A DNA stretch of 51,500 nucleotides from Bolinopsis microptera (taxonomy: Eukaryota; Ctenophora; Tentaculata; Lobata; Bolinopsidae), in contig NC_087073.1 of assembly GCF_026151205.1 (NCBI RefSeq), positions 9,936,411-9,987,910 on the forward strand. Reading direction: 5' to 3'. Positions 7,318 through 51,486 of this stretch are shown piece by piece. Positions within the stretch are counted from its first letter, which is position 1; every line of letters starts with the position of its first letter. The translations under genes were made by a program, and so were the position numbers. The notes below the pieces were generated by a model, which saw only the letters and a program-made list of their open reading frames with translations, had not been told where the DNA came from and ran no database searches.

Positions 7318-30461
<23,144 letters not shown>

Positions 30462-31111: not shown

Positions 31112-32357
31112 TTAAGGCGGCTTCAGAGTCCGAGTCTCAATGATGTGTCTCCAAAGCTTTCTGTCCGCCATAAGCTCCTTAATCTCCCCAGTGTTCTTGA
31201 GTACGGTGTCACTTATTAGGTTATCGACGAAAGTGAGCGGTGGTCTGCCCCTCCCTCTGGTCCCATGGCTAGGTTCCCGAAGGAGAAGTTGGTGTACTGC
31301 CAGGTCATCATATCGCTGGATCTCTGGATGTGCCCAGCCGACCTCATTCTTCTGGCCTGTATCTTCGAACTAACTCTTGGGAGTGATTTAAAGACCTCTT
31401 TGTTGGTGCGATGTTCTCTCCAGTCCACGTTTAGGGCCATCCAAAGCATTTTACTGTAACATCCGTCTATTCTTTTCAAAGATTCTGTCATTGTCCACGT
31501 TTCCGTTCCATACAGGAAGATTGATTCAACTGTAGCCTTGAGACAGACGGATCTTTAAATCTCGGCGCAAATTGGACCTCCATATAGCCTTCATTTTGTG
31601 GTAGGCAGCCCATGCCTTGGCCTTGCGTACCCTAAAGTCGTGCTCTGTAGCTGTTGTACTTATCCAGGCTCCTGGGTAGAAAAAATCCTCAACTTCTTCT
31701 AAGGCATGTCCGTCCTTAGAAGTTATTGTGTGTGGCTCCTCTTCTACTAAATTAACAGTAAGATGCTTGGTTTTAGACGAAAGAGATTTTCTGCCTCCTC
31801 ATCAGATGAGGCTTCTGTAGGACTGTAGCATGTGATGACAGTGAGCCTGCGCTTTCCATTGAAAGACATGGTGAGGATCCTTGCGCTGTAAGATTTTATA
31901 AGACTTAAATAGCCTCATATGCTGTCCTCGTCAAGATGATTCCTACTCTCCCATTAGAAGCGCCAGCTGCGTTTCTCCACGCAGATGAGGTCACTAGATG
32001 AATCCCTTTGTTCATCTTTTCTATCCTGGTAGGCTCAGAATGCACTACATGATGTTCTTGCAGGCCAAGGATGTGCAGTTTGATTCGAGAAAATAGTTCT
32101 GCAAGTTCGATGCGTTTGTGCTGTTCTCTGGCTGTTCTTATGTTAAATGTACTAGCCTTAGCAGTCCTTTTACATGATACAATACAATTGATGTTCATAT
32201 TTTGTTGATGTTTTCTTGTTTGACTTTCTGTAGAAATAGGTTGTCGTGTTGTGGAGACCGAGTTATCAGCTTCTGTAATAGCAGCGTAATTACCCCGGCA
32301 ACCACTTCCACTAGAAAAATAAGGGGCTTTAACCCTTAAGCTGTTGATAAGATTCAT
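31112..32357 (-). pseudogene. internally deleted RTE-type LINE (endonuclease joined to RT C-terminus)
   Basis: Read on the - strand. From 32357 downward the frame gives an N-terminal leader, then STFNIRTAREQHKRIELAEL, LHILGLQEHHVV and SSAWRNAAGASNGRVGIILT, the start of an RTE-like APE endonuclease. After a frame change near 31905 it continues as RILTMSFNGKRRLTVITCYS and PTEASSDEEAE. Almost immediately (near 31785) it jumps to the RT C-terminal zone: KTKHLTVNLVEEEPHTITSK, HDFRVRKAKAWAAYHKMKAI and, in another frame (31216-31491), KRIDGCYSKMLWMALNVDWR, ending FVDNLISDTV and the stop at 31112. The rest of the endonuclease and the whole RT palm, with its catalytic Asp pair, are absent. It is thus a dead, deleted and frameshifted copy. 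Confidence 0.85.
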
Positions 32358-35620: not shown

Positions 35621-37813
35621 GGTAAAACAAAATATGCGCGCGCTATATCTCTACCGAAAACACATCCATTTCCAATTTGATGCATATGATTATGAAATGT
35701 GTCTATATCAATATGGCCATGGGGTCGTTCACATATTACGTAACCATTTTTTGGAAGATTTTTACCCCCCCCCCCCCCCCCACCCTCCGTAATCAGTTTT
35801 ACAGCTTGAAACAAATGCGTATTGAGTGATCTTCCCCTGATCCAATTTTGACAAAAATTGGTAAGCTTACTCAAAGACTTACAAGGAAAGTGTCAGAAAA
35901 TTTAAAGCATATCCAATCATCAGACATTATGCAGTTACAGCTAAAAGCAGCGTATTTTGCACCAATAATTGCCCCATTTTCATTACTATATCAACTCCGA
36001 TATCCACGGGATTAGTGGAAGATATTTAATTTTATCAAATATTTGGTTTCATGAAAAAATCGTTTTTTGGTTTAAAAAAACTAGTACTATGTACTAGGCC
36101 AGGGAGCAGGCTTGCCACATAGCGTCCGGGAGTTCCGAACGTTTAGGCAGTGTGCTAGGTTGTGGTACACACTCAACTAGATAGTCTGAGAGTCCGAAAA
36201 TCAAAAAAAGAGATGTCATCAGATGGTGACTGTGAGCCACTGCATGACTAACCTGTGGATAGAGTTCGCTAGACTCTATAATTATGACAGGTAGTATCTT
36301 CTGTGACCAATACTCATAGCCTTTGGAATTGGATCACAAACCTAGAAACTATTTGTCGAACTGGAGAATATATAATAGTACAATACCTATCTGACGAACT
36401 TAAGCTGTCGAACTAATACTATAGTGCGTGTCGAACTAGAGTACGTGAATCGATATCATTACTGAGATTAGATATTTCCTAACAGAACTTTATCATTATG
36501 TACACCTCTACCAAAATTTGGAATGATCTCATCCCTAATAGCGATATATGTGACCTACCTATGTGACCTATGTCGAGTTTCGTCAAGACTTGACGGGGCC
36601 ATCATATCTTCTGACCACCCCATAGCGAAGTATATATCACAATGCTGGCAAGCATTACCGTCGCCCTTATATTCACAATACTATTTACCCCCTATACTAG
36701 TATATCCCCTTTATTGTTTTCCAGGCATTAAGACTCATCGAAAGTAGTTCAGCAGGTATATTTAAGTTCAAAACATTCTAATTCAATGTTAAAGATGACA
36801 GGAATAAGAAATAGTTATGTGGAGGTTTTTAAGAAATTTGCGCAAAATACGCGCCAGCATGTTATCAGTTATACGAAATTAGGTAAAAAACCCAAAATCG
36901 CCATATTCAGGTGCCTTAAAAACCATGTTAAAATTGAGTTAGATATCTGAAACTTTGCAGGGCGTCTAGACCTTGTTCAAATCGACTGTAAAATTTTTTT
37001 CATGTTTCAGGAGTATCGGGAAGTGGGTTTTCTGGAACCCCTGTTTTACAACAGATTGTCGTGAAGTATAGTATATATGTATAGACGCTTTGGCAGTCAA
37101 TTGTAGCCTACATTTAAGTGTCCGTAGATTCAGAAGTATAAAAGATACAGTCATTTCGAACCACAGGTTTTAAAGATAATTGTTTATACTTTAGTTTACA
37201 TTATATTAAAAAATAATGTATCTTCATCATCATCACTTGATGACGTCATCAAATTAAGTGTTACTGATATCTGGATATTATCCGGTTGGATAAATAAAAC
37301 TTGATTTTTGACAAAGTAATAACTTTTCAAATCGATTTTAAACCATTAAGGAGTAATTTTATTCAAAATCTTAGGACATTTTCATCTTAGATAATTGTTC
37401 AAGCATTCAGAAAATCTACCGGAAAAGTTTCTTACTTTGCTCCTTCATAAAGATATTTGCTATTGAAGTAAGTGCTTTTTTGAAGAATAATTTTATAAAA
37501 ACACAAAAGTTGTGAATTAGTATTCTCTGGTGTTGGGCCATCCCTTGGGTTGTGGAGGTCAATTTTGCTTTTTAAAGGTCTAAATTGTGTTATAGGCTAA
37601 TTTTAAAGTTGAAAATCGAAAAGTTGCACACGAGGGGACACTCCCAAATTTATAGAAAATTGCTAAAATTACTGAAAATTGCTGTTTTCACCATTTTTAT
37701 CAACTTTGGAGTCCCGTTGTGATCCAAGTTCTATATGAAATCTTCTGAAACTTTGCATGCTTATCACAGTGCTGGCAAGCACAACCGTTGCATTTATTGT
37801 GGGTATACTATGT

Positions 37814-38030: not shown

Positions 38031-39044
38031 GAGTTTTCCAGGCATTAAGACTCATCGGAAGTCGTTCAGCAGATTTATTTTTAGTTCAAAACATTATAAT
38101 TTGATGTCAAAGATGACAGGAATAAAAAATAGTTATGTTGAGATTTTTAAGAAATTTGCATAAAATACTCGCCAGCACTGTTATACGAAATTCGGTAAAA
38201 AACCCAAAATCGCCATATTCAGGTGCCTTAAAAACCATGTTAAAATTGAGTTAGAGATCTGAAATTTTTCAGGGCGTCTAGACGTTGACCAAATCGACTG
38301 CAAAAAAAGTTTCAGGTTTCAGGAGCATCGGGAAATGGGTTTTCTAGAACCCCTGTTTTACGATAGATTGTCGTGATACATATTCAGGGATAGACGCTTT
38401 GCCAGTCAATTGTAGCCTGTATTTAAGTGTCCATAGATTCAAAAGTATAAAAGATACAGCCATTTCCGACCACAGGTCTTGCAAATAATTGTTTACACTT
38501 TAGTTTACATTGTATACAAAAATTATTTGACGTCATAAACACCCCTTGATGACGTCATCAAGTTAACCGTTTTTAAAACTTAATTTTTGACAAAGTAATA
38601 ACTTTTAAAATTAATTTTAAACCATTAAGGAGTAATCGTATTCAAAATCTGAGGAAATTTTCACCTTAGATAATTGTTCAAGCATTCTGAAAATCTACCG
38701 GAAAGTTTTTTTAGCTTGCTCCTTCATAAAGATATTCGTCATTGAAGTTTGTGCTTTTTTGAAGAATTATTTTATAAAAACGTCAATTTTGCGATTTAGT
38801 ATTCTCTGGTGTTGGGCCATGCCTTGGGTTGTGGAGCTCAGTTCTGCTTCCTATAGGTATAAATTGTGCATTAGGCTAGTTTTAAAGTTAAAAATCGAAA
38901 AGTTGCACACGTGGGGACACGCCCAAATTGATAGAAAATTGCTAAAATCACTGAAAATTGCTGTTTTCGTCATTTTCTGTCAACTTTAGATTGCCGTTGT
39001 GATTACAGTTCTTCTTGAAATACTTTGAAACTTTGCATGCTTAT

Positions 39045-40435
39045 CAAGCTATATATAAAACAATTACATGCAAAAATTTACGGCGATTCAATATTGGATG
39101 CGCACGCAATGTCCGCTCAAAGTTTGCACGTGCGAAAGGTGAGAATTTTGCTCATTCGTGATTTCCAACAAATTCTGCTTAATGCCACGACAGTTTAATG
39201 TCATTATATATGAATTTAATGCCAACTTGAATGAGTATTAAGTGGCATATTCAGTCAGTGATCGACCGATATGCTTCCCTAAACACAAGGAAATGTTTTT
39301 AAAGGAAAAATTTCGAAATCGTTGAAACTTCCTCCTTATTAATGAAGATATCAGTTTATATATTTCGACTTTATAAAGTACCCTGACATAATAATCAAAA
39401 AGAGATGATATTTGACCAAAACCCATAATCATGGGTAGAGTGGACCGCTGCCAGTGTCTCTCTTTCCCAAACAAAAGGAAATGATATTAATTTGATTGAC
39501 CGTTCTCAAATGCAAAATGATACCGAGAATGAAATCGGTCGCTCGCTTTTCCCGTTTATTTACAATTGTAATAGATTAAGAAGAACTACCCAAAGGCAGC
39601 TGTACTCGGCAATAAAGATTCAATAAACTTCAGCTTATTCAATAAGTAATAACTACCACCCTTGTCCCTTACCCCGAAATACTAGGTATCGACCCGAACG
39701 CAACCCAAAGAGATTTTTACAGCATCTGATTGATGTAATCAATCGAAACTTATTTATACAATTCGTAAGCCGTGAATGAATGGGAAAAGCGAGCGGCCGA
39801 TTTCATTCTCGGTATCATTTTGCATTTGAGAACGGTCAATCAAATTAATATCATTTCCTTTTGTTTGGGAAAGAGAGACACTGGCAGCGGTCCACTCTAC
39901 CCATGATTATGGGTTTTGGTCAAATTAAACTATATACAAAATACTCCTATGCAAAAATTTACGGTGATTCAATATTGTATGCGCACGCAACGTCCGCTCA
40001 AAGTTTGCACGTGTGAAAGGTGAGAATTTTGCTCATTCGTGATTTCGAATAAATTCTGCTTTCCCACGATATTTAAATGGCATTATATATGAATTTAATG
40101 CCTACTTGAATGAGTAAAAAGTGCCATATCCAGTCAGGTAAAATTTCGAAATCGATGAAATTACCTCCTAATTATTAATATAAATATTAATGAAGTTATG
40201 AGTTTACATTTCGGCTTTGTAAATTATCCTGACATAATTATAATCAAAAAGAGATGATATTTGACCAAAACCCATAATCATGGGTAGAGTGTACCGCTGC
40301 CAGTGTCTCTCTTTTCCAAACAAAAGGAAATGATATTAATTCGAATAACCGTCCGCAAATGCAAATTGATACCGAGAATGAAATCGGTCGCTCGCTTTTC
40401 CCATTCATTCACGGCTTACGAATTGTAATAAAGCT
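39045..40435. repeat. nested direct and inverted repeats (~150-200 bp arms)
   Basis: Block P (TGCAAAAATTTACGGCGATT, continuing through GAATTTAATGCC) occurs at about 39068-39225 and again in the same orientation at 39950-40105. Block Q (TTTGACCAAAACCCATAATC through CGGTCGCTCGCTTTTCCC) occurs at about 39412-39550 (+), inverted at 39785-39925, and again (+) at 40258-40425. The inverted pair at 39412-39925 looks like a TIR element with a unique middle. Copy 3 extends further (CATTCATTCACGGCTTACGA), matching the middle's right side. Confidence 0.8.
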
Positions 40436-41874: not shown

Positions 41875-42332
41875 TTACCCCCAGTTCTATGGCCGGGTAT
41901 TTTCACGGGTGCCGGGTAGGTTTGCGGGTACAGACACGGGTACTACATTTTGTGCCCGTACCCGCGTACACGTGAACCATACACGTGAACCATGATACAC
42001 GTGAACCATACACGTTCGAACCATACACGTGAACCATACACGTGAACCATACACGTGAACCATACACGTGAACCATACACGTGAACCATACACGTGAACC
42101 GTACACGTGAACCGTACACGTGAACCGTGCACGTGAACCGTACACGTGAAACGTACACGTAAACCGTACACGTGAACCGAACACGCGAACCGTGCACGTG
42201 AACCGTACACGTGAACCGTACACGTGAACCGTACACGTGAACCGTACACGTGAACCGTACACGCGAACAAACCCGTGAACCGTACACGTGAACATACACG
42301 TGAAAATACCCGGCCATGGAACTGGGGGGTAA
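41875..42332. mobile_element. 458-bp TIR element filled with a 13-bp CACGTG minisatellite
   Basis: The ends TTACCCCCAGTTCTATGGCC (continuing GGGTATTTTCACG) and their complement at 42298-42332 form about 32-bp terminal inverted repeats, with one indel and one mismatch. Between them about 25 copies of CACGTGAACCGTA or CACGTGAACCATA run head to tail. This gives roughly twenty perfect CACGTG E-boxes; left-hand copies are mostly the CATA type and right-hand copies the CGTA type. All three - strand frames are open because 39 (3 x 13) is a multiple of three; none is a real gene. Confidence 0.8.
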
Positions 42333-43221
42333 CTTGTCAGCTGTGAACGTGTACCAGCAATTCTCACACACATTTTAGTGTTGTTTATTAAAACTCAAAG
42401 GAAGGTCCAAATCACTTATTGCTGTGGGTGGAAGAGTTCTGGTACCTCTGTAACCCCTGATAGAGATTATACAGGTTCTTAGTAAATTAAAACGCAGTCT
42501 GCGTCTGACAAATGACATCACATCTCTGCTTTAGCTTAATAAATAATTATATTTATACGGTAATATATAACGCGAACGGTAACATATATTTAAAAGAAAA
42601 TCAATGATTCACGTCATGTTCACGTCATGTTCACGGACAAAACCCAATTACATCACCAACAAAAAAGATTTAAAACTAAATTAAAAAGATCCAAAAGAGC
42701 TATATATACTAGAAAAAGATCCAAAAGAGCTATATACTAGAAAAAATATGGACAAAAATATCATCAAAAAATTAACTTTTCATGCATAATTGTCTCTTCA
42801 CTCATTCTTAGCCCATTTTGTGGTCAACGGCCAACGTACCTGTTCTACAGCTACTCCAGACACATCTGCATGAGCCCTCCAACTCCTGGAAGGCGAGAGA
42901 TTCCCTTCAGCAGATCCTGTAATTTACAAGGTGTTTGGTTGGGAATTTTCTAATTTTGCGGAGCTCGAGAAACAAATCGTCAAAGCTCTTCGAAGCTGGG
43001 CCCGGTTTCAGGTCAGGCCGTAATCACCGACACAGGGTGAAATCTGGCAACTTCAAGTTCAAGCGAGTTGGCAAAGCTACCTCTGCAAGCGATCACTTGT
43101 CACGTTTTCTAGATGTAAAAGTAATCAAATCAGATCACGTGGCACTGCATCTAAAGTCAACAATTTACACAATGTACAATGAACAAAATATATTGTACAG
43201 GCTATAATATAATGTATTATA
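42333..43221. other. non-coding or downstream part of the 299-aa gene
   Basis: A short tandem AAAAAGATCCAAAAGAGCTATATA pair lies at 42684-42750, and a TTCACGTCATG pair at about 42609-42635. If the - strand gene continues by splicing, its next exon would lie here. Candidate acceptors exist near 43080-43100 (GCTTGCAG) but no continuation is convincing. Confidence 0.35.
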
Positions 43222-44121
43222 TTAGTATATTACCTTAAGCCTACCGTGCACCTCCTCATCATCAAACGCGAGTACAAGATCAACTGCAACAGAAACTCCA
43301 GCTTCAACACATTCGATTTCCATACCAACAGAGGGTGCGAGGTAAATTGCATACTTCTTCCCGCCCACCGGGTTCTTGGACACGCCTATGAAGAATCCAA
43401 CGGGGCACAGCCCGGAGCAACCGTAACATGTGAAATCAACTTTCATGTCGCCTTTGTCTTTAGAAAAGAAGCTGACGGAAGTATCCATTCCGTTCTTTAG
43501 CGCCCCTCCTACGCCCAAACCGACTCCTCCGTCAACTCGGAAGTACCAAATGGTACTTGAGAGATTATGGCACAACTCTTTCAGAGTCATCCCAGGGCAT
43601 ACCGCATTAATAACATGGTCAATACCGTCGCCCATCATTTCCGAAACGCCAAGTTCATAACACGTCTGTTTCCCCGCAGTGTATAACTCTTCTGGTGTTA
43701 TCATTCGAATCAGACGACCCTTGTGTTCAACATCTGTCGAGAAGTATAGACCAACGTTCCCTTCAGCAACAACTCCATTCTTGTCCACTTCAGTAGTGTA
43801 TGAAGTCACTTTGATTCCATGCACCAGAACTTTGCCATTGCTGTTTCCACCAAAATCTCCATCTGAGCTTTTCAGCTTGATGACCTGTCCCTCGAGCTTC
43901 ACCAGGGGGTTGTTAAAGAGCCCATAGGTATCATCCGGTGCTTCTACGTCGATCCCATTCTGAAACACATCTGGTTTGACATGCAGACCTGTAACAATTT
44001 CAAACGCTTTTCCAATGCCAGTTTCAACGACAACAGTTTCTGCCGCGTTATCCACAACTCTCATCATCTCTTTGCTGGCGTTACCCGCAAGCTTAACCGC
44101 CTGGTGAAATATCCAGGCCAT
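43222..44121 (-). CDS. unrecognised 299-aa protein
   Basis: A long, clean open frame starts MAWIFHQAVKLAGNASKEMM. I do not recognise the family. Residues ~1-60 look helical and hydrophilic. From ~65 on it is rich in Gly, Val and beta-type alternation. Notable segments are MTLKELCHNLSSTIWYFRVD, then GGVGLGVGGALKNG, then a Cys cluster CYGCSGLCPVGFF, then a Val-rich end. There is no signal peptide and no clear membrane span. The ORF may end at the TAA at 43222-43224. Alternatively it may splice out at GCACG/GTAGGC or TTAAG/GTAATA near 43235-43245; both look usable, so the C-terminus is uncertain. The start codon and first five codons are part of the 79-bp tandem array that lies directly upstream, and an acceptor-like CTGTTTTAG sits 14 nt before the ATG. 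Confidence 0.65.
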   Translation of the reverse strand: MAWIFHQAVKLAGNASKEMMRVVDNAAETVVVETGIGKAFEIVTGLHVKPDVFQNGIDVEAPDDTYGLFNNPLVKLEGQVIKLKSSDGDFGGNSNGKVLVHGIKVTSYTTEVDKNGVVAEGNVGLYFSTDVEHKGRLIRMITPEELYTAGKQTCYELGVSEMMGDGIDHVINAVCPGMTLKELCHNLSSTIWYFRVDGGVGLGVGGALKNGMDTSVSFFSKDKGDMKVDFTCYGCSGLCPVGFFIGVSKNPVGGKKYAIYLAPSVGMEIECVEAGVSVAVDLVLAFDDEEVHGRLKVIY

Positions 44122-47100
44122 AACTGCAGTGCGATCTAAAACAGGGGTATCATTAGTGTCAATATTTCAATAGGAGACTAAAAGTAAATATCCAGGCCAT
44201 AACTGCAGTGCGATCTAAAACAGGGGTATCATTAGTGTCAATATTTCAATAGGAGACTAAAAGTAAATATCCAGGCCATAACAGCAGTGCGATCTAAAAC
44301 AGGGGTATCATTAGTGTCAATATTTCAATAGGAGACTAAAAGTAAATATCCAGGCCATAACTGCAGTGCGATCTAAAACAGGGGTATCATTAGTGTCAAT
44401 ATTTCAATAGGAGACTAAAAGTAAATATCCAGGCCATAACAGCAGTGCGATCTAAAACAGGGGTATCATTAGTGTCAATATTTCAATAGGAGACTGAAAG
44501 TAAATATCCAGGCCATAACAGCAGTGCGATCTAAAACAGGGGTATCATTAGTGTCAATATTTCAATAGGAGACTAAAAGTAAATATCCAGGCCATAACAG
44601 CAGTGCGATCTAAAACAGGGGTATCATTAGTGTCAATATTTCAATAGGAGACTGAAAGTAAATATCCAGGCCATAACAGCAGTGCGATCTAAAACAGGGG
44701 TATCATTAGTGTCAATATTTCAATAGGAGACTAAAAGTAAATATCCAGGCCATAACAGCAGTGCGATCTAAAACAGGGGTATCATTAGTGTCAATATTTC
44801 AATAGGAGACTAAAAGTAAATATCCAGGCCATAACAGCAGTGCGATCTAAAACAGGGGTATCATTAGTGTCAATATTTCAATAGGAGACTAAAAGTAAAT
44901 ATCCAGGCCATAACAGCAGTGCGATCTAAAACAGGGGTATCATTAGTGTCAATATTTCAATAGGAGACTAAAAGTAAATATCCAGGCCATAACAGCAGTG
45001 CGATCTAAAACAGGGGTATCATTAGTGTCAATATTTCAATAGGAGACTGAAAGTAAATATCCAGGCCATAACAGCAGTGCGATCTAAAACAGGGGTATCA
45101 TTAGTGTCAATATTTCAATAGGAGACTGAAAGTAAATATCCAGGCCATAACAGCAGTGCGATCTAAAACAGGGGTATCATTAGTGTCAATATTTCAATAG
45201 GAGACTAAAAGTAAATATCCAGGCCATAACTGCAGTGCGATCTAAAACAGGGGTATCATTAGTGTCAATATGTCAATAGGAGACTAAAAGTAAATATCCA
45301 GGCCATAACAGCAGTGCGATCTAAAACAGGGGTATCATTAGTGTCAATATTTCAATAGGAGACTAAAAGTAAATATTTAGGCCATAACTGCAGTACGATC
45401 TAAAACAGGGGTATCATTAATGTCAATATGTCAATAGGAGACTGAAAGTAAATATCCAGGCCATAACTGCAGTGCGATCTAAAACAGGGGTATCATTAGT
45501 GTCAATATTTCAATAGGAGACTGAAAGTTAATATCCAGGCCATAACTGCAGTGCGATCTAAAACAGGGGTATCATTAGTGTCAATATTTCAATAGGAGAC
45601 TGAAAGTTAATATCCAGGCCATAACTGCAGTGCGATCTAAAACAGGGGTATCATTAATGTCAATATTTCAATAGGAGACTGAAAGTAAATATCCAGGCCA
45701 TAACTGCAGTGCGATCTAAAACAGGGGTATCATTAGTGTCAATATTTCAATAGGAGACTGAAAGTAAATATCCAGGCCATAACTGCAGTGCGATCTAAAA
45801 CAGGTGTATCATTAGTGTCAATATTTCAATAGGAGACTGAAAGTTAATATCCAGGCCATAACTGCAGTGCGATCTAAAACAGGGGTATCATTAGTGTCAA
45901 TATTTCAATAGGAGACTGAAAGTAAATATCCAGGCCATAACTGCAGTGCGATCTAAAACAGGGGTATCATTAGTGTCAATATTTCAATAGGAGACTGAAA
46001 GTTAATATCCAGGCCATAACTGCAGTGCGATCTAAAACAGGTGTATCATTAGTGTCAATATTTCAATAGGAGACTGAAAGTTAATATCCAGGCCATAACT
46101 GCAGTGCGATCTAAAACAGGGGTATCATTAGTGTCAATATTTCAATAGGAGACTAAAAGTAAATATCCAGGCCATAACTGCAGTGCGATCTAAAACAGGG
46201 GTATCATTAGTGTCAATATGTCAATAGGAGACTAAAAGTAAATATCCAGGCCATAACTGCAGTGCGATCTAAAACAGGGGTATCATTAGTGTCAATATTT
46301 CAATAGGAGACTGAAAGTTAATATCCAGGCCATAACTGCAGTGCGATCTAAAACAGGGGTATCATTAGTGTCAATATTTCAATAGGAGACTAAAAGTAAA
46401 TATCCAGGCCATAACTGCAGTGCGATCTAAAACAGGGGTATCATTAGTGTCAATATGTCAATAGGAGACTAAAAGTAAATATCCAGGCCATAACTGCAGT
46501 GCGATCTAAAACAGGGGTATCATTAGTGTCAATATTTCAATAGGAGACTAAAAGTAAATATCCAGGCCATAACTGCAGTGCGATCTAAAACAGGGGTATC
46601 ATTAGTTTTAATATGTCAATAGGAGACTAAAAGTAAATATCCAGGCCATAACTGCAGTGCGATCTAAAACAGGGGTATCATTAGTGTCAATATTTCAATA
46701 GGAGACTGAAAGTAAATATCCAGGCCATAACTGCAGTGCGATCTAAAACAGGGGTATCATTAGTGTCAATATTTCAATAGGAGACTGAAAGTAAATATCC
46801 AGGCCATAACTGCAGTGCGATCTAAAACAGGGGTATCATTAGTGTCAATATTTCAATAGGAGACTGAAAGTTAATATCCAGGCCATAACTGCAGTGCGAT
46901 CTAAAACAGGGGTATCATTAGTGTCAATATTTCAATAGGAGACTGAAAGTAAATATCCAGGCCATAACTGCAGTGCGATCTAAAACAGGGGTATCATTAG
47001 TGTCAATATTTCAATAGGAGACTGAAAGTTAATATCCAGGCCATAACTGCAGTGCGATCTAAAACAGGGGTATCATTAGTGTCAATATTTCAATAGGAGA

Positions 47101-48687
47101 CTGAAAGTAAATATCCAGGCCATAACTGCAGTGCGATCTAAAACAGGGGTATCATTAGTGTCAATATGTCAATAGGAGACTAAAAGTAAATATCCAGGCC
47201 ATAACTGCAGTGCGATCTAAAACAGGGGTATCATTAGTGTCAATATTTCAATAGGAGACTGAAAGTTAATATCCAGGCCATAACTGCAGTGCGATCTAAA
47301 ACAGGGGTATCATTAGTGTCAATATTTCAATAGGAGACTAAAAGTAAATATCCAGGCCATAACTGCAGTGCGATCTAAAACAGGGGTATCATTAGTGTCA
47401 ATATGTCAATAGGAGACTAAAAGTAAATATCCAGGCCATAACTGCAGTGCGATCTAAAACAGGGGTATCATTAGTGTCAATATTTCAATAGGAGACTAAA
47501 AGTAAATATCCAGGCCATAACTGCAGTGCGATCTAAAACAGGGGTATCATTAGTTTTAATATGTCAATAGGAGACTAAAAGTAAATATCCAGGCCATAAC
47601 TGCAGTGCGATCTAAAACAGGGGTATCATTAGTGTCAATATTTCAATAGGAGACTGAAAGTAAATATTCAGGCCATAACTGCAGTGCGATCTAAAACTGG
47701 GGTATCATTAGTGTCAATATTTCAATAGGAGACTAAAAGTAAATATCCAGGCCATAACTGCAGTGCGATCTAAAACAGGGGTATCATTAGTGTCAATATT
47801 TCAATAGGAGACTAAAAGTAAATATCCAGGCCATAACTGCAGTGCGATCTAAAACAGGGGTATCATTAGTGTCAATATTTCAATAGGAGACTGAAAGTAA
47901 ATATCCAGGCCATAACAGCAGTGCGATCTAAAACAGGGGTATCATTAGTGTCAATATTTCAATAGGAGACTGAAAGTAAATATCCAGGCCATAACTGCAG
48001 TGCGATCTAAAACAGGGGTATCATTAGTGTCAATATTTCAATAGGAGACTGAAAGTAAATATCCAGGCCATAACTGCAGTGCGATCTAAAACAGGGGTAT
48101 CATTAGTGTCAATATTTCAATAGGAGACTGAAAGTAAATATCCAGGCCATAACTGCAGTGCGATCTAAAACAGGGGTATCATTAGTGTCAATATTTCAAT
48201 AGGAGACTGAAAGTAAATATTCAGGCCATAACTGCAGTGCGATCTAAAACTGGGGTATCATTAGTGTCAATATTTCAATAGGAGACTAAAAGTAAATATC
48301 CAGGCCATAACTGCAGTGCGATCTAAAACAGGGGTATCATTAGTGTCAATATTTCAATAGGAGACTGAAAGTAAATATCCAGGCCATAACAGCAGTGCGA
48401 TCTAAAACAGGGGTATCATTAGTGTCAATATTTCAATAGGAGACTGAAAGTAAATATCCAGGCCATAACTGCAGTGCGATCTAAAACAGGGGTATCATTA
48501 GTGTCAATATTTCAATAGGAGACTGAAAGTAAATATCCAGGCCATAACTGCAGTGCGATCTAAAACAGGGGTATCATTAGTGTCAATATTTCAATAGGAG
48601 ACTGAAAGTTAATATCCAGGCCATAACTGCAGTGCGATCTAAAACAGGGGTATCATTAGTGTCAATATGTCAATAGGAGACTGAAAG
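44107..48687 (-). repeat. 58-copy, 79-bp tandem array containing the start of the 299-aa gene
   Basis: The unit start recurs every 79 bases without a single indel: checked at 44107, 44186, 44265, 45608, 47188 and 48610. Read on the - strand each unit has GATACCCCTGTTTTAG, then a CACTGCAGTT or CACTGCTGTT variant, then ATGGCCTGGATATTT, then ACTTTTAGTCTCC (or ACTTTCAG). Only the unit at 44107 joins the gene; there the sequence leaves the repeat after ATATTT. Variable sites are few: CTGCAG/CTGCTG, AATATTTC/AATATGTC, CTAAAAG/CTGAAAG, TAAATAT/TTAATAT. There are no spacers, so it is not a CRISPR-type array. Confidence 0.97.
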
Positions 48688-49436
48688 GAAGAACTAACAA
48701 TGATTAAAATCACTGACATTTGAAAATAAGGTGATTCTTGGAGGAGTACTATAAATTATTATAACTACTAGAACTGAGGGCAAATTGTTTGGTTCAACAC
48801 TGATCTCAGGTTCACTTTGATTACATGAAGATATGTTGTTGAAAAATAGGGGCTAATGCTGTGTAAAGTGTTAAATGTTTTATTCTGTATCTTTGGTTTG
48901 GATGGATATTTATTTATGCGCTTAAAACTTTCTTTTAAAGAATACTAATAGCTTCATCCATGTTACCACGGGCTTTCTAGTATATATATAATTTGAGATA
49001 ACGATGTATAATAAATGATGCAAAGAATTTCGAAGATCTAATCAACACCGACTTTTAATGTGTAGGAGTACAGCAACGAAATATATATATATATATATAA
49101 TATATATTATCAACAGAAGATGTGGAAGAATTATGACAGTTGAACTCTATAATAGTCATCGAGTCCTATGATACCTAATACATACTGGGATGCTTCAAGT
49201 GTGTGGTTATAATAATATAAGGTAATAAGATGAGATTTCATATTCTTGCCAATATAATTGTGATCTTTTAACAATCTTATAATAATCCTGGACCTGGAAA
49301 AAGTCCAGCACACATTGGAACGTCCGCTAATTTTCTCGATGTAATCCGACTTATATGGTCCTAAATAACGCTAATTACTCGGGTACACTTTTTCACCAGT
49401 GGGGCATTTCTCGGATTCACGCCCTTTTTGACCACA
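48688..49436. other. AT-rich flank of the array
   Basis: No coding exon recognised on either strand. An AT-dinucleotide tract lies at about 49081-49110. If the 299-aa gene has an upstream promoter or exon beyond the array, it would be here. Confidence 0.4.
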
Positions 49437-50724
49437 CCCATATCGTGACCCCCACTATAAATTATTCCAGCTTCTGAAATTGAGATACGGACCTCAGCTA
49501 TGAATAAAAATGTGCCTAAGATATATTTTTATCTTAGTGCTATGGAGATACTTAAAGCCTAAGAGACTTAGTTTTTGAGAAATCGCCAAAAATCTGATTT
49601 TACTATACTGGCAATCTTGCGCGTAACCATTATTACACTTATTTCAAGATATCTCAGCTTCTGATTGGAGCTAGGTGCTCATCTCGGGCATTAAAATGGT
49701 CAAAATCATCATATTGATCAGTGGGGTAGAGCATGGTTTTAAAGTCTCCAGACTTCGGGTTGTTGAGCTATTAGGTAATATGCCATTTTTACGCTCTCGC
49801 GAGTAGCAATTTGTGCACCTATTTCGAAATATCTCAGCTTCTGATTGGAGCTAAGCGTTCATCTTGGGCATCGAAATGGTCAGAATGATCACAATTAGTG
49901 GGGTAGAGCATTGTTTAAAAGTCTTGAGACTTCAGGTTGTTGAGTTATTAGGTCGAATCCCATTTTTACGCTCTCACAAGTAGCGATTGATGGACTTATT
50001 TCAAGATATCTCAGCTTCTGATTGCAGCTAAGCGCTCATCTAGGGCATTAAAATGTTCAGAATCATTACATTGAGTGGGGTGAGCATATTTTCCAAGTCT
50101 TCAGACTTCAGGTTGTTGAATTATTTGGTTAAAACATATTTTTACGCTCTTGCAAGTAGCGATTGATACACTTATTAGAAGATATCTCAGCTTCTGATTG
50201 AAGCTAAGCGCCTATCATGGGCATTAAAATGGTCAGAATGATAAAATTAAGTGGGGATAAGCATGTTCCTAGAGCTATATTAGAGCTATACTAGAGGTTT
50301 TAGTGTAATTTTACTGATATTTCTTGGCAAACAACTTTTTTTCCTGGCATTTAATTAATGTCCATTTAATAAATATTTTCACCATTGCAGTGACCATACT
50401 TGCAAGAGTGTAAAAAAGGATTGACGTAATCATTTAATAACCCGAAGTCTGAAGACTTTAAAACCATGCTCGATGCTACTTAATCTAATCATTCTTACTA
50501 TTTCAATGCCCAAGATGAACGCTTAGCTCCAATCAGAAGCTGAGATTTCTTGAAATAAGTGCATAAATTGCTACTCGCGAGAGCGTAAAAATGGCATATT
50601 ACCTAATAACTCAACAACCCGAAGTCTGAAGACTTTAAAACCACGCTCTACCCCAATCAATATGATGATACTGACCATTTCAATGCCCAAGATGAACGCT
50701 TAGCTCCAATCAGAAGCTGAGATA
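49437..50724. repeat. ~177-bp tandem repeats in direct then inverted orientation
   Basis: The landmark ATCTCAGCTTCTGATTG recurs at about 49651, 49831, 50008 and 50184 (spacing 180, 177, 176). A diverged first copy occurs near 49470. From about 50440 the same unit reads in inverted form, with AGCTCCAATCAGAAGCTGAG at about 50525 and 50703. Each unit also has GGGCATTAAAATGGTCAGAA, GACTTCAGGTTGTTGA and TTTTTACGCTCTCGCGAGTA. The inverted turn is near 50300-50430. No coding sequence. Confidence 0.85.
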
Positions 50725-51486
50725 TCACCTTAATAACACCAGAATGTGTGTGTGTGTGTCTGATGTCTGTGTGTAATTTCCGGTCGGTTATACAAAAAAA
50801 ACGGTAAGAGTTACGGGACTGTTTTTTTTCGGTATAGTGCCGACAAAACTCTGATGAAGCCCATAAGCAAATTTTTTTAAATCGGCCGGTGGTAAGTGGT
50901 TTAATTGATGGTTTCGTACCACAAATGTTACATAAAATAGCTTGAGCAGAACGGCAAGAGTTACGGGGCTTGCTCTCTCTTTCTCTCTCTCTCTCTCTCA
51001 TTACTGTATAATATGTTATAGCTGCATTTAAGTAGCGTCATAATTGGATTAGCCCAGAAGATTCGCTGTAATGTTATACCATAAGCTTATTAGGGGAGGG
51101 GACTGTTAGTGTTTGGGGTCTGTTTGGACTGCAGAGAGAGAGAGAGAGAGAGTTCATACGACAATGTTATGCGTGTTTTCAAATATAATAGGCGGGTGTG
51201 GTGCGGAGTTAACAAGGGTTAATTTCTATAACGATTTAAATAAAAATGGAAAGCGGTTCAAGACGGGAGTGATGAGGTGTAATAGTCGGTGTTCAGACCT
51301 TATGATCATGGAATGTGGTGCCTCATGGCTATAATGACTTAATTATCCACAAGAAATAACTGATTATGAGATTATTGTTTAAGAAACTATTGGGTCACTT
51401 AATGCGGGTTTTGACTCAGCGGGTAATTACTCCTACCCTTTTTAACTGCGGCAGTGAAATCCCGGCCGAAGGCCGGGTTACACTAG
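50725..51486 (+). mobile_element. 762-bp non-autonomous Helitron
   Basis: The 5' end is TC (50725-50726) preceded by A. The 3' end is CTAG (51483-51486) followed by T, with a perfect hairpin CCCGGCC-GAA-GGCCGGG at 51461-51477 and a 5-nt gap before CTAG. This is the Helitron terminal signature (5' TC, hairpin, 3' CTRR, insertion between A and T, no target duplication). The flanks GAGATA and TCTTGAAATAAGTG are continuous in the intact neighbouring repeat unit (about 50531-50553, GAGATTTCTTGAAATAAGTG), so the empty site is visible. Inside are a GT tract, a CT tract, a GA tract, and a doubled CGGTAAGAGTTACGGG / CGGCAAGAGTTACGGG phrase. There is no Rep/helicase gene, so it needs an autonomous partner. 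Confidence 0.88.

Follow-up and report, generated by a model that had tools for sequence, protein, structure and literature searches.

The genome of the ctenophore Bolinopsis microptera carries, within a 51,500-nucleotide stretch of contig NC_087073.1 (positions 9,936,411 to 9,987,910 of the forward strand; hereafter the window, whose own numbering is used throughout), a tandem array in which the 5' end of a 299-aa open reading frame (ORF) is repeated 58 times. The structure of this array is confirmed by our analysis. It is best read as a young minisatellite grown from the gene's own start, an origin that we hold on balance to be the likelier account, if by no means a secure one; a function is only proposed. 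Both edges of the array fit a single ancestral copy, since coding sequence lies at one end and a strong acceptor-like site at the other, on the same strand.

Results

Layout and turnover of the array

Tandem Repeats Finder (TRF) gave a period of 79, 58.0 copies, 97% matches and 0% indels, and cutting in register from 44107 yielded 57 full units and 78 of the 79 bases of a 58th, among which 14 distinct sequences were found. As a first-pass annotation, made by a model from the letters of this DNA, had described, the units run head-to-tail over ~4.6 kb without indels. With many copies of a unit in the range of ~10-100 bp (58 x 79 bp), the array has the layout of a minisatellite, or variable number tandem repeat (VNTR). 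On the - strand, the ATG-bearing GTTATGGCC was present in 58/58 units, CTGTTTTAG in 56/58, with CACTAAT upstream of it in 54/58, and the full ATGGCCTGGATATTT in 45/58; the statement that each unit carries the whole set of motifs holds for the ATG and is slightly too strong for the rest. Apart from matches of 10-12 bases, the window holds no further copy of the unit core, and the core had no match in viral or prokaryote contigs. Three single-unit RNA folds were weaker than the shuffle mean (z +0.9 to +1.7), no Rfam family was found in the window, and a tRNA search found none. A long repeat protein is ruled out by the 106-120 stops present in each of the six frames, the longest open stretch being 31 codons.

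Among units 1-57 there are 12 variable columns, with a mean divergence of 1.6% from the consensus and 2.4% between pairs, and the most frequent variants lie in columns 74 (26/57), 19 (14/57), 1 (9/57) and 60 (8/57). Private variants are confined to unit 17, at columns 8 and 25, which makes a recent common ancestry of the copies probable. In addition, nine pairs of columns display all four combinations (four-gamete conflicts), a block of seven units recurs exactly further along the array (Table 1), and identity between units three apart is 16 against 7.3 expected, a value reached by 0/2000 shuffles, with 29 lags looked at. This pattern of turnover is best read as unequal exchange, and its shared variants and block duplications are those of a minisatellite or VNTR. 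Neither edge is degenerate: unit 1 is one base off the consensus, and unit 58 is two bases off, plus the first base of the flank. The freedom from indels singled out by the first-pass annotation is true of the array and unsurprising, as merely a dozen columns hold any substitution; in our judgement, rather than by computation, it mainly reflects the array's youth.

The two edges

At the far edge, the first bases of the repeat complete TTGTTAGTTCTTCCTTTCAG at 48681, followed by TCTCC; the last 7 nt of this site belong to the repeat and the preceding pyrimidine tract to the unique flank. Scored with a generic 3' splice matrix, built on general frequencies rather than trained on this organism, the site reaches 9.52 bits, placing it in the top 0.4% when set against the 5616 AGs outside the array. 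In a matrix-free comparison, 12/2670 YAGs (outside the array and a GA repeat) equal it in both pyrimidine content and longest run, from which one expects 0.003 YAGs of that grade on the strand in question at a distance of up to 10 nt from the edge. Elsewhere in the array this AG recurs 57 times, at 2.2-4.9 bits, the pyrimidine tract having been lost at the internal joints. There CTTTYAG (57/58) falls in the top 9-25%, with 36 copies at or below 3.2 bits (top 18-25%) and 21 CTTTCAG copies at 4.5-4.9 (top 9-11%). Elsewhere in the unit, CTGTTTTAG scores 3.63 in 54/58 units (top 15% of window AGs), and CTGCAG before the ATG scores 3.1-5.0 bits in 44/58 (top 9-19%); the best array acceptor other than the far edge is no better than the top 8.6%. 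The idea of 58 competing splice acceptors is thus weakly supported: weak sites are found in most units, and the sole strong one stands at the far edge.

The near edge falls 15 nt within the ORF. The unit holds the ORF start, and the gene-proximal copy serves as repeat and ORF at once, as had been noted from the letters alone. That description covered one boundary only; what is new here is the pair of preserved edges, together with the odd leader that they imply.

The 299-aa ORF

The ORF is hardly due to chance, since the longest ORF in 60 Markov-1 simulations, modelled on the window from which the GA repeat, a 13-bp minisatellite and the greater part of the array had been taken out, measured 177 aa. 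Codon preference also favours its frame (0.232, versus -0.438 and -0.585 for the remaining frames of that strand, with 0.089, -0.185 and -0.475 for the opposite one); the training set was an EamA transporter ORF of the window (22247-23398; 2.6e-21), which we take to be SLC35G-like. The main ATG has G at -3 and +4, a context that counts as good, and an in-frame TGA lies between it and the far-edge site; further in-frame ATGs occur at codons 19 and 20. Residues 6-32 show a strongly amphipathic helix pattern (1/5000 shuffles), and for this reason the coding sequence probably reaches near the array boundary.

As donor-like AAG/GTAATA precedes the stop, the ORF as printed may be incomplete, with a wrong C-terminus. 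A candidate next exon would end at 42840, ahead of a strong donor, GTACGT (10.25 bits), and use of the weaker of its two acceptors, at 42917, would yield a protein end of 21 residues. Searches for a family returned just Peptidase_M24 in Pfam (E=0.15, below the cut-off), a best E=0.4 against PDB sequences, and nothing in NCBIfam or PHROGs at E up to 10. No relatives were found in viral contigs, prokaryote genomes or phage records. The collections searched are other than animal genome sets, so that absence is only weakly indicated. The window holds no second copy of the gene (best tblastn match E=0.32). A second array does lie beside the gene, a 13-bp minisatellite, CGTACACGTGAAC, in 26 copies at 41965-42304, ~900 bp past the 3' end of the ORF.

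Table 1 Positions of the array, the ORF and the candidate sites around them
Feature	Position	Strand	Description
79-bp tandem array	44107..48687	-	Unit on - strand: CTTTYAG, 56-nt leader, ATGGCCTGGATATTT, A
Gene-proximal unit	44107..44185	-	ATG 44121-44119 and next four codons form the ORF 5' end
Far edge, TTGTTAGTTCTTCCTTTCAG	48681..48700	-	Strong 3'-splice-like or initiator-like site
Implied leader	44122..48680	-	4559 nt if far-edge acceptor used; 56 nt with a single unit
Seven-unit block, units 27-33	46161..46713	.	Exact repeat as units 39-45 (47109-47661)
CACCAG, ORF codons 6-7	44101..44106	-	Competing acceptor-like site, 6.79 bits, top 3.1%
299-aa ORF	43222..44121	-	Possibly one exon of a longer gene; first 15 nt from gene-proximal unit
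Candidate 5' splice site, CTTAAG/GTAATA	43228..43239	-	Just before ORF stop; 6.2 bits, top 3.9%
Candidate next exon	42840..42916	-	Start 42916 (weak acceptor at 42917, <=4 bits) or 42885 (acceptor at 42886, 8.0 bits)

A proposed origin

Under the history that we favour, an ancestral first coding exon would have begun at TTCTTCCTTTCAG/TCTCC (48681/48680), with a leader of 56 nt followed by ATGGCCTGGATATTTCACCAG. The founding event would have been a tandem duplication at the level of DNA. It would have taken in 79 bp: the last 7 nt ahead of the exon boundary, the leader, the first 15 coding nt and a joint base T. Growth to 58 copies would have come about by unequal exchange or slippage, with the pyrimidine tract lost at each internal joint and kept at the far edge. 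Only the gene-proximal unit would then feed the ORF. Entry via the far-edge site would give a transcript with 4.6 kb of leader and 115 upstream ATGs; the gene would then be poorly translated or else need a start or weaker acceptor in the last units. The array, its edges, the turnover in blocks and the loss of the tract at internal joints can all be seen directly in the DNA; the order of events and the use of the far-edge site are what we infer. The joint T is explained directly by neither flank, and may be either an added base or the product of an adjacent one-base loss. An origin from spliced RNA is unlikely, because 7 nt ending in AG belong to the repeat.

Upstream ATGs

From the far-edge site to the main ATG, a distance of 4559 nt, there are 115 ATGs, 57 of a MAW type and 58 of a MIPLF type. 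Each of their frames is closed by a stop upstream of the main ATG, and none enters the ORF; these frames are candidate upstream ORFs (uORFs). The gene-proximal unit contains three GTs, none of them donor-like (best -2.5 bits with a generic matrix, top 71% of window GTs). If present on a transcript, the extra ATGs could only act as decoy uORFs, because no upstream frame reaches the ORF and the unit is without a plausible donor. The idea that the units provide the gene with competing starts is not supported on either count, the 57 extra MAW-type ATGs all ending before the main one. As uORFs usually inhibit the downstream frame (PMC6755093, PMC3738444), the likeliest effect of an array-bearing transcript would be repression, and the alternative to be expected would be escape via a start or acceptor near the last unit.

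The first-pass annotation had also raised the possibility of a micropeptide. Of the 57 non-proximal MAW-type ATGs, 36 open the exact frame MAWIFTFSLLLKY, 18 a frame with one replacement (10 F5L, 8 K12T) and 3 a frame that stops after MA. Variable columns make up 6/42 of the frame versus 6/37 outside it (Fisher p=1.0), or 5/39 versus 7/40 if the stop codon is left out (p=0.76). Because 3/57 copies stop after two codons and the frame columns vary like the others, with no sign of constraint, a micropeptide is not supported. Control of expression level through copy number, a further suggestion of that annotation, may apply.

Weighing the alternatives

Several observations weigh against an origin from the gene's start. 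The test of the far-edge site was post hoc, the site having been picked after the sequence was viewed, and its bases also fit an initiator, so that it may be a splice site or a start site. A branch-point-like TTAAT lies 23 nt upstream, but an AG intervenes 13 nt before the site. Beyond 48687 no first exon was identified, the best donor (7.0 bits at 51437, top 2.5%) being one of several alike. At the opposite edge, CACCAG/GCG at 44101, six bases into the unique side and within the ORF, outscores every site in the array except the far edge, and the membership of MAWIF in the helix is uninformative (55/120 permutations as good). If the exon truly began at CACCAG/GCG, an intron would contain both the array and MAWIF, and the model of the first-pass annotation would fail together with the one favoured here.

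This last scenario is unlikely, if the best placed of the alternatives. The array would lie outside the exon, as a minisatellite of an intron or spacer whose ATG is there by chance or was only afterwards taken up by the ORF. Beyond the rank of CACCAG/GCG (top 3.1%), it is helped by the in-frame ATGs at codons 19 and 20, by the lack of any measurable helix phase added by MAWIF, and by the ease with which an ORF leaving the array finds a start, each unit having an ATG and its length of 79 bp not being a multiple of three. However, it turns a far-edge site of such strength on the same strand into a coincidence (0.003 expected, post hoc), and the main ATG has a good context.

It is also conceivable, and compatible with the favoured origin, that amplification ended expression and that the ORF is a young pseudogene. 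The 115 ATGs of the implied leader and the lack of relatives in the collections searched are in keeping with such a dead locus, but the ORF is intact and codon preference favours its frame (0.232); we regard this outcome as distinctly unlikely.

The pyrimidine tract of the far edge would suit a start site too. If CTTTCAGTCTCC were an initiator, the duplicated piece would be a start-site region plus leader, and the units would be copies of a promoter, like the spacer elements of ribosomal DNA (rDNA). The - strand of the array does contain TCAGTY 32 times, where 1.6 copies would be predicted from the - strand of the remaining window, or 3.7 from its + strand; yet it occurs once per C-bearing unit, as a single amplified motif would, and a lone short motif in each unit is weak support. 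Moreover, TTTTAGTC replaces the C-bearing form in 26/58 units, and TATAWA is found on neither strand of the array, making a promoter array improbable.

The proposal of the first-pass annotation as a whole, in which many units serve as alternative acceptors, start codons or the source of a micropeptide, draws on the invariance of the ATG (58/58), the near-constancy of CTGTTTTAG (56/58) and of the CACTAAT upstream (54/58), and the 21 internal CTTTCAG copies at 4.5-4.9 bits (top 9-11%). It is nevertheless very improbable, given acceptors that away from the far edge are no better than the top 8.6%, a unit with no donor, extra ATGs that never enter the ORF and a peptide frame that is not conserved. 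Finally, near-identical 79-bp units are hard to count and the figure of 58 may still be off, but 14 unit types, ordered domains and the duplication of a seven-unit block look biological, and an inflated or artefactual array is highly improbable.

Other features of the window

A Helitron-like insert of 762 bp (50725-51486) follows the end rules of these elements, with TC at its start and the hairpin CCCGGCCGAAGGCCGGG then TTACACTAG at its end, between A and T. When its flanks are joined, their 26 bases find one exact match among the 177-bp repeats at 49636-50264, read in reverse complement, and match three further places there with 1-3 mismatches. These repeats form a tandem with nearby inverted copies (49636-50264 and 50397-50726) that are 79-87% alike. 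An inverted pair, 8904-10267 and 10524-11938, is 94% identical over 1.4 kb and has a tandem duplication of ~341 bp in each arm (8904-11938), and a direct duplication of 1 kb (36716-37766 and 38033-39046) is 84% identical. The GA microsatellite comprises ~224 copies (13955-14402). We also identified a reverse transcriptase ORF (869-2848; RVT_1, 1.2e-36) and a weak endonuclease-like piece (31905-32357; Exo_endo_phos 0.025, below the cut-off); an ORF of the window taken to be receptor-like had no Pfam support.

Discussion

The CSTB dodecamer of EPM1, a VNTR at the 5' end of a gene, likewise places a short tandem unit beside a gene start. Its expansion is among the mutations considered loss of function (PMC10814315), and non-coding VNTRs can alter expression through their copy number (PMC12776774). 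However, the CSTB unit is 12 bp of G and C, lies in the promoter and has no start codon, whereas the unit described here comprises leader, ATG and coding bases; CSTB and such VNTRs are unstable in copy number, while the present array is known from one sequence. In the D4Z4 macrosatellite, each unit contains the DUX4 gene (PMC2965761), and stable mRNA is reported only from the edge unit (PMC3203905). Here too an edge unit joins unique sequence, although the D4Z4 edge supplies an intron and a polyadenylation signal, whereas in the present array each unit has 15 nt of coding sequence and the gene body comes from the edge.

Spacer repeats of Xenopus rDNA resemble the promoter, but rDNA comprises RNA polymerase I genes without a translated leader, and in this its spacer promoters and enhancer repeats differ from the array. 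One account describes a duplicated rDNA promoter, with repeats termed enhancers between it and the promoter of the gene (PMC9737084). In chelicerate sDscam, tandem 5' gene parts are described ahead of one constant body (PMC4835542). As presented there, those cassettes consist of two or four exons, generally with their own promoter, and are spliced to the constant exon; the unit here has an initiator-like motif in 32/58 copies and no plausible donor (best GT -2.5 bits, top 71%). Among the papers listed by a literature search aimed at such arrays, none described one in its title or the first part of its abstract, which does not show that the array is unpublished.

Many minisatellites no longer reveal the sequence from which they were founded. 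Here both edges of the array seem to keep the single-copy source, and the founding duplication would thus be readable. It is tempting to imagine a self-made translational rheostat, in which each repeat of leader and start codon would add two decoy uORFs, array length, shifting by unequal exchange, would set how much protein is made, and the place of entry into the array, through the weak acceptors or starts of each unit, would set the number of decoys remaining; we consider this a long shot. If the array is transcribed, it would offer a natural series on how many decoy start codons a gene can bear, and may constitute a fast-changing dial on expression.

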